Virus record (IMG/VR): IMGVR_UViG_3300035682_000132
Span: 1 to 30,002 of that record
Direction: 5' to 3' (one strand)
DNA from: a virus
DNA length: 30,002 nucleotides
Shown piece by piece: positions 5,420-30,002 of this stretch; positions within the stretch are counted from its first letter, which is position 1, and the number at the start of each line of letters is the position of its first letter. The position numbers and the translations under genes are program-made. The notes below the pieces were generated by a model that worked only from the letters and a program-made list of their open reading frames with translations, made no database searches and was not told the DNA's origin.

Positions 5420-6208
5420 TTATTTAAGATTACATTGTTGAATTAAATATTTTGTGTATATGATTCTTCGAAGTTCACAAGTGATTGAATGCGCAAAGTT
5501 TTCTTCTTGTCTTTCACTGAACTTTGAAATCTTTGTTGGTGTAATGTCTTGTTCTTTCATCACAACTTTTCGTGCTTGAATTCGGAATGCTTTCCATTCT
5601 TCTTTGGAATACATATCATCAGATATTAATCCAGTTGAATGCATCCATTCCACAATCCGATATGAACACAACATTGCACTGGTGTTCTTTCCTTGTTTCC
5701 ATTGTTCAATGTGTTCCTGAATCAACTTCATCCAGTCAACCTTGATTTCTTTTTCAGCATCAGTTGGTTCTGGTGGATTCAGTTCTTTCCACTTTGCTTC
5801 CAAATTCCGATATTCAATAATTGCTTTTCCTTTGTGTATCAGATACAATGAAAGAACATCAGAGATATATGAAGCATCAATTGTTTGGAAGTGATTGATT
5901 TTCTTGTCGAACTGGTTTGTGATGTTCATTTCAATAGCAATCATCAAATCATCAAGCGTTACTGATGGGAATGCATTAGAAAGAATCTGGTGCATTATCT
6001 GGATGAATTGTATGTCAACCATCGCAACACCATTCAAAGCGCAAATTTTGACTATGCTTTGCGCGAATTCAGGCAATGTACACTTGGATATCTTTTCTGA
6101 TTCTTGTGCTTTAATGATTCTGTTGTGAAGCAATGTCATTTGCTTGTTGAAGAATTCTTTCTGCATCAGTGATTGTGAACCTTCCGTTTTTTGAAGTTGT
6201 TGATTCAT
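5420..6208 (-). CDS. Probable replication-associated protein, unassigned
   Basis: A 262-residue helical protein immediately downstream of the initiator gene and overlapping its end by 98 bases. No ATPase P-loop is visible, so it is not a canonical DnaC/IstB loader, although its position is where phages often keep a helicase loader or primosomal protein. The start at 6208 is preferred because the 40 bases before it form an A-rich leader with repeated AAAATCAAAA blocks, as before other genes here; ATGs at 6166 or 6139 would shorten the overlap. A longer frame open to 6364 lies over coding sequence of the initiator and is unlikely. Role in replication is inferred from context only. Confidence 0.6.
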   Translation of the reverse strand: MNQQLQKTEGSQSLMQKEFFNKQMTLLHNRIIKAQESEKISKCTLPEFAQSIVKICALNGVAMVDIQFIQIMHQILSNAFPSVTLDDLMIAIEMNITNQFDKKINHFQTIDASYISDVLSLYLIHKGKAIIEYRNLEAKWKELNPPEPTDAEKEIKVDWMKLIQEHIEQWKQGKNTSAMLCSYRIVEWMHSTGLISDDMYSKEEWKAFRIQARKVVMKEQDITPTKISKFSERQEENFAHSITCELRRIIYTKYLIQQCNLK

Positions 6209-6890
6209 TTGCTTTTTGATTTTGGTTTTGATTTTTGTATGTTGATTTTCTTCGCATCCAATTTCGTGCTGATGACAACCAGTCAACCATTGGTGTTCTT
6301 CCAACCTTCCAACCATTACTGGAATAGTAATCGTAAAATTCGTTTGCATCTGATTCAGTTCCATCTATTGTGGAAAAGTATTCAAGCACTTGCAAAACTG
6401 ATTCAGGTTTTCCTTGTTTCTTATTTTTTTTCGTCTTTATTATATTAATATTATTATTAATACTATTAATACTATTACTATTAATACTATTATTAATATT
6501 AGTATGTAGTGCATCAGTTTCACATATGCTCACCATATGCTCACCATATGCTTCATCAGACGAAGTTGAATTTGAAGATGGAATCACCAGTGGTTTTTTC
6601 TTGGATGTCGCATTGCGCTTTCGATTCATTGAATATTCACTTTGCTTTTGCATTGATTCCAGAAGTGGTTCATACATCCAAACATCACCATATGCTATGC
6701 ATATGCTCTGCATATGCTCACCATATGCTATGCATATGCTTTTCATCTGGTCTTGTGTGATGAATCCATTCTGATGCTGGATGCAAAGCATTGTCAAGAA
6801 TGAACCTTTTTGTTCCATTGACATCAGTGAAGAATCCTGAAGTAATCTGGTAACATCAAGCATCATTGGTTTTGATTTTGATTTGAACAT
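6111..6890 (-). CDS. Replication initiator / replisome organiser, origin inside the gene
   Basis: A 259-residue protein. The N-terminal part (LLQDSSLMSMEQKGSFLTML, about 16-35) looks like the winged-helix start of phage replisome organisers. The C-terminal part has the FYDYYSSNGWKVGR...WLSSARNWMRR pattern (about 185-215) common in phage initiators. The middle is low complexity: an 11-residue repeat (SICIAYGEHMQ and relatives) and an Asn/Ile/Ser-rich stretch. Both are the translation of 11-bp DNA repeats and an A/T-rich block, an arrangement like lambda O, where the origin lies within the initiator gene. It should bind these repeats and recruit host helicase; no phage helicase, primase or polymerase is encoded. 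It lies between the DnaA-like gene and the 5420-6208 gene. Confidence 0.76.
   Translation of the reverse strand: MFKSKSKPMMLDVTRLLQDSSLMSMEQKGSFLTMLCIQHQNGFITQDQMKSICIAYGEHMQSICIAYGDVWMYEPLLESMQKQSEYSMNRKRNATSKKKPLVIPSSNSTSSDEAYGEHMVSICETDALHTNINNSINSNSINSINNNINIIKTKKNKKQGKPESVLQVLEYFSTIDGTESDANEFYDYYSSNGWKVGRTPMVDWLSSARNWMRRKSTYKNQNQNQKANESTTSKNGRFTITDAERILQQANDIASQQNH
6521..6552. repeat. Three-unit 11-bp iteron array
   Basis: Three head-to-tail units of CACCATATGCT: 6521-6530 (one C missing), 6531-6541 and 6542-6552. The core CATATG is palindromic. The array begins 15 bases from the A/T-rich block, close enough to act as part of an origin. Confidence 0.85.
6686..6740. repeat. Five-unit 11-bp iteron array
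   Basis: Five contiguous 11-bp units: CACCATATGCT, ATGCATATGCT, CTGCATATGCT, CACCATATGCT, ATGCATATGCT. The last eight bases of each (CATATGCT) are invariant and only the first three vary. Spacing of one helical turn would put every core on the same DNA face. Encoded on the minus strand as an 11-residue protein repeat of the initiator. Confidence 0.9.
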
Positions 6891-6902: not shown

Positions 6903-7403
6903 TTAGTACACTTTGTTTGTCACCATCAGAACATTCAAATCTTTTTTCATTCCATCATATTCGTGCATTGCAATATATTCAGCAACTGCATTTGCTTGAT
7001 TGCGAAATGTCTTATCAAAAATGAATAGTTCTTCGAACATCTTGTAAGAATGAATCGCAGTTGAATGATGTCGGTTGTATCTTCTGGAAATATTCGCCAT
7101 TGTCATCATCGTGTTTTTACGCATAACCCACATACACATATGCCTTGCATATGCAATTTCGCGTCTTCGTGAATTCTCATACAATGATTTTGCTTTGATT
7201 CCGAATACATTGCAAATCTTATCTTCCAGAAGTTGAATAAAATCTTCTTCTTTCATCAACACTTCTTCAACTTCTTCTGGTTCTTGTTCAACATTATCAC
7301 TGGTGATTATGTATGGTGCAATGAACAAAACAAATTCTTCGCGTCTTTCTGGAAGAACAAACATTGATGCGTAATCAAGTATTTTTTTTACTTCAGTTTT
7401 CAT
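6903..7403 (-). CDS. DnaA domain IV-like DNA-binding protein
   Basis: A 166-residue protein. The C-terminal half matches the DNA-binding domain of the bacterial initiator DnaA: a helix with REIAYARHMCMWVMR (about 98-112), ISRRYNR, then the signature HHSTAIHSYKMFEEL (about 128-142), equivalent to the DHTTVLHA signature that contacts DnaA boxes. There is no AAA+ ATPase domain, so it can bind DNA but not melt an origin by itself. The start at 7403 is fixed by an ATGA overlap with the previous gene; the frame stays open to 7463 but only adds basic residues inside that gene. It lies next to the initiator with the embedded origin, and its own sequence has two iteron-like sites. A role in origin recognition or capture of host replication proteins is inference. 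Confidence 0.8.
   Translation of the reverse strand: MKTEVKKILDYASMFVLPERREEFVLFIAPYIITSDNVEQEPEEVEEVLMKEEDFIQLLEDKICNVFGIKAKSLYENSRRREIAYARHMCMWVMRKNTMMTMANISRRYNRHHSTAIHSYKMFEELFIFDKTFRNQANAVAEYIAMHEYDGMKKDLNVLMVTNKVY
7134..7155. repeat. Two further CATATGC sites with 11-bp phasing
   Basis: ACACATATGCC (7134-7144) followed directly by TTGCATATGCA (7145-7155). The CATATGC cores begin at 7137 and 7148, exactly 11 bases apart as in the arrays within the initiator gene. They lie inside the DnaA domain IV-like gene. With two units this could be chance, but the spacing matches. Confidence 0.5.
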
Positions 7404-7660
7404 TTTCTTTTTTGGTTCAAAGGTTCTTCGTTTTGCTTTTCGTTTTGTTTTTCGCTTTCGCATATCAGGTTGTATAATTCAGTGGAATCAATTCCAGTTT
7501 TGGTTTGTATTCTTGAAAAGACATCCATACGCATTTGTTCTGGATGTTTGAGATAATGTGTTGCAGTTGGAATACTGCAATCAATATATCTTGCAAAAGC
7601 AACAACACTTCGAAAGTGTTGCGCTAATGCTTGATGAAATTTAGAATGGTAAATCGCCAT
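7400..7660 (-). CDS. Small DNA-binding-like protein
   Basis: An 86-residue protein. Residues 8-45 fit a Cro/CI-like helix-turn-helix (HFRSVVAFARYIDCSIPTAT, followed by YLKHPEQM). The C-terminal 20 residues are repetitive and charged (Gln, Lys, Asn, Glu). It overlaps the SSB-type gene by 20 bases upstream and is ATGA-coupled to the DnaA-like gene downstream. Likely a regulator or replication accessory; no specific family recognised. Confidence 0.6.
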   Translation of the reverse strand: MAIYHSKFHQALAQHFRSVVAFARYIDCSIPTATHYLKHPEQMRMDVFSRIQTKTGIDSTELYNLICESEKQNEKQNEEPLNQKRK

Positions 7661-8429
7661 CTGTTTTGTTGTTTAATTTTTCAGAAGTGATTTCAGCATT
7701 GATAAACGAAATGAATGTTTCAGCAACTTCCAGAATTTGCTTCAGGTCACAATTGCGTTCTTTCAAAAAATTCACTGATGATGTTAATGCATTCATACGA
7801 ATGATTCGCGCTTCAGTTTCTGGTGATTTAGCACCAAATGATTGTGCTGGTGTTGATGTGTTTTGTGACATTGGTCTTGAATAATTTTGTTGTGTTCCAA
7901 ATACTGGTTTGATTGCAGTGAATGTTTTACCATTCTTTGTTGGTTTGGTTTCGATGGTGTAGGTTGCTTCTTGACCAGCGACAAATTTGTTTTGGTCTGA
8001 TGATTTGGAATTGTAGTTTCCTACATCACCATTTTCGAATGCAACTTCGAATCCATAAAGTGTTCCATAGTTTGATTCGAATGAACCATTTGATTGTGCT
8101 GATAGCACTTTGCTTGTCTTTTCCATAATTGTGGATTTGTTATTTGTTGTTTGTTGTTGATTGATTTCTGATTCTTCTTTGAATTGATTCCTAATTTTTT
8201 GTTCGTTCCAGTTTGCTTCATTAGACCAATTCCAGAATACTTTCGAATTGTCAAATTTCATTGTATTGAAGAACTGATATTCTGATACACCAAATTTGAT
8301 TGATGCTTGATATGATTTCAGCATCGTATCAAAGATTGTTGGTCTGGATTCCCTATCATATGTTTCCGACATTTCGAATATATGATTTGAAAAATGCCTT
8401 GCGACAAATTGATTTTCTTCTTCCATCAT
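7641..8429 (-). CDS. Single-strand DNA-binding-type protein with N-terminal extension
   Basis: A 262-residue protein in two parts. Residues 101-180 form a beta-rich OB-fold-like unit (FESNYGTLYGFEVAFENGD, later FVAGQEATYTIE) of the kind seen in phage single-strand-binding proteins, and the protein ends in the acidic tip DGDLPF, the SSB-type partner-docking tail. Residues 1-100 are a different aromatic-rich domain with no family I recognise, joined by a Gln/Asn/Thr linker (about 90-99). An internal ATG at 8129 (M101), preceded by an A-rich stretch, could give a separate short SSB. The full-length start at 8429 is supported by an ATGA overlap with the previous gene. Role: coating single strands during replication or recombination. 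Confidence 0.68.
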   Translation of the reverse strand: MMEEENQFVARHFSNHIFEMSETYDRESRPTIFDTMLKSYQASIKFGVSEYQFFNTMKFDNSKVFWNWSNEANWNEQKIRNQFKEESEINQQQTTNNKSTIMEKTSKVLSAQSNGSFESNYGTLYGFEVAFENGDVGNYNSKSSDQNKFVAGQEATYTIETKPTKNGKTFTAIKPVFGTQQNYSRPMSQNTSTPAQSFGAKSPETEARIIRMNALTSSVNFLKERNCDLKQILEVAETFISFINAEITSEKLNNKTDGDLPF

Positions 8430-29697: not shown

Positions 29698-29933
29698 TTG
29701 ATTTTATTAAATCAATGTTGAGTTCAAAAGGTGATGTTTCAAGTAAAAGAATCATTGCTTTATTTCTGGTGGTGAATCTGGTTGTGACAATGTACATCGC
29801 AGTGTACAACAATGAAGAAAGAGTTGCACCAGAATTTATGTTTGATGGTTTGTGTTTATTGGCTGGTGGTGGAATTGGTTTGAATGTTCTTGAAAAAATA
29901 TTTAAGAAAAAAACAGATGAACAACAATCCTGA
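29694..29933 (+). CDS. Holin-like small membrane protein (second)
   Basis: A 79-residue protein with two membrane segments (about 20-40 and 50-66) and a Lys-rich end. The start at 29694 overlaps the previous stop in ATGA form; an upstream extension to 29631 lies inside that gene and is unlikely. It may be a second holin or an antiholin partner. On the circle its 3' end overlaps the metallophosphoesterase gene by 17 bases. Confidence 0.65.
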   Translation: MIDFIKSMLSSKGDVSSKRIIALFLVVNLVVTMYIAVYNNEERVAPEFMFDGLCLLAGGGIGLNVLEKIFKKKTDEQQS

Positions 29934-30002
29934 TGTAAAAATCATTCTTGAATATCTTGAAAAGTACAAACATCTTCCATCACTTACTCTTGCAAAACTG
30001 AT
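29876..30002. repeat. Terminal direct repeat, right copy (circularisation overlap)
   Basis: Second copy of positions 1-127. It contains the end of the second holin-like gene and the first 86 bases of the metallophosphoesterase gene (start at 29917, equal to 42), so that gene is not truncated on the circular genome; it is complete at 42-1040. Confidence 0.93.

Follow-up and report, generated by a model that had tools for sequence, protein, structure and literature searches.

An 11-bp CATATG iteron array and an A/T-rich block inside a phage initiator gene as a candidate replication origin

Does a phage gene that is predicted to encode a replication initiator also contain the origin on which its product acts? 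The question is raised by a gene at 6111..6890, on the minus strand, of a 30,002-base stretch of DNA (the window) that is the whole of an IMG/VR virus record. A direct terminal repeat of 127 bp (1-127 and 29876-30002) indicates a complete genome of 29,875 bp that is circular or circularly permuted, and the terminase, portal, and protease genes are those of a tailed phage. The nearest named relatives of the terminase are those of Flavobacterium phage 11b (49% identity) and Cellulophaga phage phi10:1 (46%), a kinship that makes a Flavobacteriia host likely. The relatives used for comparison are mostly uncultivated contigs with inferred hosts, some of them fragments, and totals from several of the contig scans are lower bounds.

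Iterons, A/T block, and genes in the window

Two clusters of AGCATATGNNN iterons, oriented on the minus strand, lie within the gene. Cluster A (6686..6740) has five units, with CATATG starting at 6689, 6700, 6711, 6722, and 6733 in exact 11-bp steps. Cluster B (6521..6552), in linker-coding DNA that adjoins an A/T-rich block, has three, starting at 6523, 6534, and 6545, again in 11-bp steps. All eight sites read CATATGCT on the plus strand and AGCATATG on the coding strand, and cluster A lies ~145 bp from cluster B on the upstream side. The five and three units claimed by an earlier, sequence-only reading of this DNA are thus confirmed by the positions and spacing of CATATG, but a further pair in the next gene, at 7137/7148 (7137..7153, minus strand), was overlooked. 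This pair is also found in the close relative L001; its significance is doubtful, and it was rejected as a third cluster because an 11-bp pair occurs in 1 of 32 nonredundant DnaA-domain genes.

The motif is strongly overrepresented, with 34 copies of CATATG in the window compared to 12.1±3.6 in dinucleotide shuffles, and 21 copies of GCATATG compared to 4.0. Six of the seven 11-bp CATATG pairs in the whole window fall in the initiator gene, and 20,000 synonymous redraws of that gene, made with the window's own codon usage, yielded four such pairs at most.

The A/T block at 6422..6505, a presumed DNA unwinding element (DUE) by its composition and stability, was described beforehand as almost pure A/T. 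Its measured A/T content is 90%, rising to 93% over 6438-6505, against 67% in the genome; no 84-mer in the genome is richer in A/T, and the 50-mer of lowest stability in the genome is centred within it, at 6461. The cumulative GC-skew minimum, proposed as a check, agrees less well. It is at 7300, near the array but off it, and is confounded by gene orientation.

The initiator gene encodes 259 amino acids and is defined by its open reading frame, its AF2 model, and phrog_15768/28809. In the model (mean pLDDT 77, pTM 0.41), an N-terminal winged helix (residues ~12-96, with helices 13-20, 25-41, 46-52, and 57-63 and strands 65-67 and 70-72) is followed by a disordered linker (~108-158) and a helical C-terminal domain (~160-258). 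Cluster A codes for residues ~50-68 and so spans the predicted helices 46-52 and 57-63. The window protein has no significant Pfam match, and a Foldseek search with the model gave no significant fold match. Naming a relative from Foldseek or VIA-align was dropped, as the N-terminal part returned generic winged-helix matches with a best Z of 5.3. DUF1376 (PF07120) is matched by 14 of 30 relatives at E<=0.01 (best 7.6e-7), the window member being without a match, and relatives have 'primosomal protein' and 'replication initiation O-like' among their PHROG matches. The C-terminal module is common to annotated phage replication initiators; its carrier sits beside a DnaC-like loader gene in Porphyromonas phage005a and beside a DnaB-like helicase gene in Vibrio phage 1.236.O.

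The gene that overlaps the initiator gene downstream (5420..6364, minus strand) has the position of a lambda P-like helicase loader, and its product has no Pfam match and matches PHROGs of unknown function only. Directly upstream, at 6903..7463 on the minus strand, is a gene for a stand-alone DnaA domain IV protein of 186 aa (PF08299, E 3.8e-17, the sole domain found), which gave no match to an AAA+ ATPase domain. This neighbour, which the sequence-only reading of the neighbourhood missed, is possibly a second origin-binding factor. In two relatives, the DnaA-domain-like genes are very unlike, as if exchanged (L012:5973-6500 and L011:1296-1835), while the initiator proteins and arrays are nearly identical. 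Farther upstream, 7641..8429 (minus strand) encodes a probable ssDNA-binding protein, so named solely from its acidic, SSB-like C-terminal tip (...DGDLPF), with no informative Pfam or PHROG family match.

Conservation of the arrays across relatives

Single-sequence searches for relatives recovered L001 alone, and a DNA search of a phage collection with the origin region as query gave no match. Motif scans reach much farther. Three copies of AGCATATG at 11 bp are found in L001 and four distant contigs, and in every case the array lies within the initiator gene with a DnaA-domain-like gene directly upstream. A scan by DNA only, for three CATATG at 11-bp steps, finds at least 119 viral contigs, and in ~80% of these (among the matches listed) the array is inside the initiator gene family. 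The control scan with CATATG at 10-bp spacing finds 14 contigs, and the initiator gene family is present in none.

A second set of 80 loci was gathered by protein only and is therefore free of any DNA criterion. CATATG neighbours at 11, 12, 22, or 23 bp occur in 62 of these 80 loci. CATATG occurs 250 times compared to 115±6 in synonymous shuffles, and 11-bp neighbours 97 times compared to 14.5±3.2, although the loci are partly redundant and these counts are not independent. Across 32 nonredundant loci, 40 11-bp pairs are found in 21.6 kb of initiator gene and none in the 157.9 kb around it. Exact 6-mer repeats at a lag of 11 reach 5.9/kb compared to 0.5 in other genes of the same loci, and at a lag of 22 they reach 3.6/kb compared to 0.34, each about tenfold. 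Lags of 6, 12, 18, and 24 are raised too, probably from codon repeats such as Glu-Asn runs.

The two clusters are not equally conserved. Of 76 CATATG-class genes, 72 have cluster B and 39 have an array at the cluster A position, and in the divergent members L016, L276, and L318 the upstream array is at other codons. The five-copy cluster highlighted earlier is real, but the conserved one is the three-copy cluster that adjoins the A/T block. Comparison of the window with L001 shows 0 changes over the 55 bp of cluster A and, for the gene outside it, 30 changes in 594 bp, a difference that is weak by itself; in cluster B of L001, the three CATATG cores are kept and the spacer bases are changed. 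A fixed helical phase between the clusters was rejected, as their distances vary and fit no single phase.

The A/T block follows the same pattern. Over the 60 bp that follow cluster B, the A/T content in 74 nonredundant genes is 80%, compared to 66% for the remainder of the gene. Of all 50-mers within 1 kb, the least stable falls 0-120 bp past cluster B in 45 of the 74, where 4.4 are expected. The bias extends to synonymous codons, with AAT:AAC for Asn at 371:2 in the block compared to 657:466 elsewhere, and GAA:GAG for Glu at 322:7 compared to 950:262. A mere disordered linker has no need of such a bias, which argues that the block is selected as DNA. In L001, the block is reshuffled by indels relative to the window, yet it is still A/T. 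The earlier claim that the repeats themselves are selected as DNA is likewise borne out by the synonymous shuffles, the excess at lags 11 and 22, this codon bias, and the use of all three codon frames by CATATG sites (126/111/74).

Some genes with unlike N-terminal domains carry CATATG arrays as well (L126, L057, L051). One such gene, L051:13006-13872, with counterparts in L015, L073, and L128, has four CATATG at 11 bp in the coding sequence of a protein without a Pfam or PHROG match (GAYEKHMDTICKPYGFS), and reads as an initiator-like gene of another lineage. Only six of the genome loci listed carry the initiator gene, and these include MAGs labelled Clostridia, Bacilli, or Saccharibacteria, among others, with uncertain hosts. 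Many scattered CATATG triples at 11 bp, for example GAATTCATATGGAATTCATATG, are found in Rhodobacteraceae contigs (L129-L207: Rhodovulum marinum, Actibacterium, Marinosulfonomonas, and others). They were left out as an apparently chromosomal repeat family unrelated to the initiator.

Exchanged iterons and a second gene family

Relatives that keep the protein without the repeats had been named as the finding that would speak against an origin here. Such relatives exist as far as CATATG is concerned, but several of them have a different tandem repeat in the corresponding positions, which favours the origin reading. TTAGGTT recurs at 11 bp in L305 and L299, CTAGGTT at 11 bp in the linker-coding part of L336, CCACGGCA at about 11-12 bp in L313, L326, and L404, and ACTCCGAGC at 13 bp in the linker-coding part of L316; CTCCGAG is likewise among the swapped repeats. 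A few family members, for example L386 and L353, have no clear array. The layout is kept and the repeat sequence is swapped between relatives, which is the strongest sign that the array, and not the peptide, is what is conserved.

A scan for three GTATAC at 11 bp, another palindromic hexamer chosen as a control, finds 60 contigs. A DUF1376-type gene is present in none of them and the initiator profile matches 0 of the 60 loci. In about half of the contigs, however, the array lies inside the PHROG 'DnaD-like helicase loader' gene family. The scan thus cannot serve as a clean null for the hexamer, though it does so for the gene family. Arrays of TGTATACA with an 11-bp step are seen in DnaD-like replication genes (L413-L472; e.g. 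L439:3216-3914 and L443:6442-7161). Among isolated relatives, 11-bp pairs lie in the replication-gene linker: Lactococcus phage 38502 and Streptococcus phage Javan264 have GTATAC there, and Streptococcus phage M102AD and Lactobacillus phage LF1 have TGTATCC.

These genes belong with the 'replisome organizer' or 'DnaD-like helicase loader' proteins of Lactococcus, Streptococcus, Enterococcus, and Lactobacillus phages, for which no published origin data were found. In 38502 and M102AD, the gene with the 11-bp repeats is beside a helicase or DnaC-like gene, and some metagenomic members of the family have the C-terminal module in common with the window initiator family. Unlike the window, the DnaD-like family has another N-terminal family and another iteron. 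It is conceivable, and offered tentatively, that unlike initiator families share one origin grammar made of a one-turn (about 11-bp) array of short palindromic or near-palindromic sites in the initiator gene, a following A/T block written in synonymous codons, and a swappable site address, the addresses on this reading being CATATG, GTATAC, TTAGGTT, CCACGGCA, and CTCCGAG. On this reading, the upstream array in the family of the window initiator also encodes the helices of the domain expected to read it, so that the site and the binding surface must co-change.

Proposed origin, rival explanations, and known systems

The arrangement is most probably a theta-type origin located in the gene of its own initiator, which would bind its own iterons, melt the A/T block, and recruit the helicase. 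The sequence evidence supports the outline of the earlier reading, which had placed an origin in the initiator gene. The initiator (6890-6111) would bind the CATATG iterons through its N-terminal winged helix, and the palindromic cores, one helical turn apart, would set the protomers on one face of the DNA, presumably with cooperativity. Assembly on cluster B, aided by cluster A, would then melt the adjoining A/T block, and the C-terminal domain may recruit the host helicase directly or via the downstream gene product, with replication presumably proceeding in theta mode. Several observations count against this explanation: the GC-skew minimum is off the array, the downstream gene is unrecognisable as a helicase loader, the Foldseek search had no significant match, and a few members are without a clear array. 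Moreover, CATATG arrays in genes with unlike N-terminal domains are a hard fit for a single specific winged helix.

In a rival explanation, host DnaA or the stand-alone protein with DnaA domain IV (7463-6903) would bind the iterons, with the initiator bringing the helicase only. A 9-bp DnaA-type box with 2 bp added gives the 11-bp step, and arrayed DnaA sites in oriC are spaced in this way. In favour of this rival are the PF08299 domain encoded directly upstream of the initiator, the DnaA-domain-like gene that lies ahead of the initiator in L010-L013 too, the 11 of 28 family records with PF08299, and the 11-bp CATATG pair that the DnaA-domain gene itself has in the window and L001. Such a pair, however, is in just 1 of the 32 nonredundant genes noted above. 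No PF08299 was found in the other 17 of the 28 records, mostly CATATG-class contigs of ~30-42 kb of which some are possibly fragments, and a DnaA-domain protein was therefore rejected as a universal binder. Where present, the domain occurs in both CATATG and TTAGGTT classes and does not track the iteron class, and in L012 and L011 the arrays stay nearly the same beside very unlike DnaA-domain-like genes. Binding by a DnaA protein is accordingly judged unlikely. The initiator is favoured as the binder because the arrays follow its gene with or without a DnaA-domain gene, though the DnaA-domain protein may bind in those phages that carry it.

The remaining rivals dispense with an origin altogether. 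The arrays could be operators, at which the protein binds its own gene and represses or times early transcription, with the A/T block reflecting an Asn-rich linker. Binding sites within an early gene could indeed act as a roadblock and A/T-rich codons suit a disordered linker, but the block is biased at synonymous sites where a linker needs no bias (AAT:AAC 371:2) and stands in fixed order after cluster B, the arrays are inside the gene and not at its start, and PHROG names and neighbours indicate replication initiation, so that operators are a very improbable reading. A centromere-like partition site would also suit two clusters of 11-bp direct repeats, since ParR binds clusters of 11-bp repeats in parC of plasmid R1. 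It can practically be dismissed, as the arrays track the initiator gene and no ParM, ParA, or ParR domain was found among the twenty window proteins scanned. Equally remote is an origin of the repeats in protein constraint or slippage, the three CATATG being an accident of coding for a conserved peptide such as HMxxICxxY. A peptide of this type recurs in many relatives and slippage is able to expand an 11-bp unit. Nevertheless, the synonymous shuffles, the three frames, and the zero pairs outside the gene contradict this account, as do the retention of cluster B within a poorly conserved linker, the different codons at which divergent members have the upstream array, and the other motifs at the same places.

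As a candidate origin within its initiator's gene, the locus resembles several known systems without matching any of them. Escherichia coli oriC has cooperative DnaA sites about one turn apart together with a DUE. The window is similar in its one-turn site spacing and in the adjacent DnaA domain IV gene, but no AAA+ domain was found in the neighbour protein, and the repeats, judged by inspection, are without the DnaA box consensus TTATCCACA.

In lambda and Stx phages, the origin lies in the middle of gene O and consists of inverted-repeat iterons followed by an A/T tract (PMC7466680). Lambda has four iterons and Stx six, the minimal site is a 19-bp imperfect inverted repeat, and with the two extra iterons the O protein is longer by 13 residues (PMC7466680). 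The likeness claimed earlier, with a different repeat and initiator, proves correct: tandem iterons are inside the initiator gene, in the window and family-wide, and an A/T-rich tract adjoins them in the window and in the 74 genes. Unlike lambda, the step is 11 bp, the core is a 6-bp palindrome, and clusters of 5 and 3 are separated. No lambda O family is found among the Pfam matches of 30 members, the window protein having none, and the O-like phrog_678 is matched by only 3 of 30. Since both iteron form and protein family differ, the locus is classed as a distinct version of the initiator-embedded origin. SPP1 oriL, within gene 38, likewise has direct repeats and an A/T-rich DUE, is bound by gp38, and is served by the loader gp39 (PMC6316719). 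The window shares direct repeats and a putative DUE within the initiator gene, and is set beside gp38 by layout only. No report of the present origin type was found in the literature, subscription journals being outside the scope of the search.

For a large group of phages of which hardly any have been isolated, the locus provides a testable candidate origin and initiator, and its signature, an 11-bp hexamer array with a codon-biased A/T block, is readable from sequence alone. Related initiators with different repeats at the same places form a natural experiment on how initiator and origin specificity co-change, with the further restriction in this family that the repeats also code for protein. 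In the isolate Flavobacterium phage 11b, no CATATG array and no gene matched by the initiator profile are found; its unannotated gene 63 (L408:33871-34509) carries CAACTAA repeats at 10 and 20 bp, which are a possible candidate origin of that isolate.
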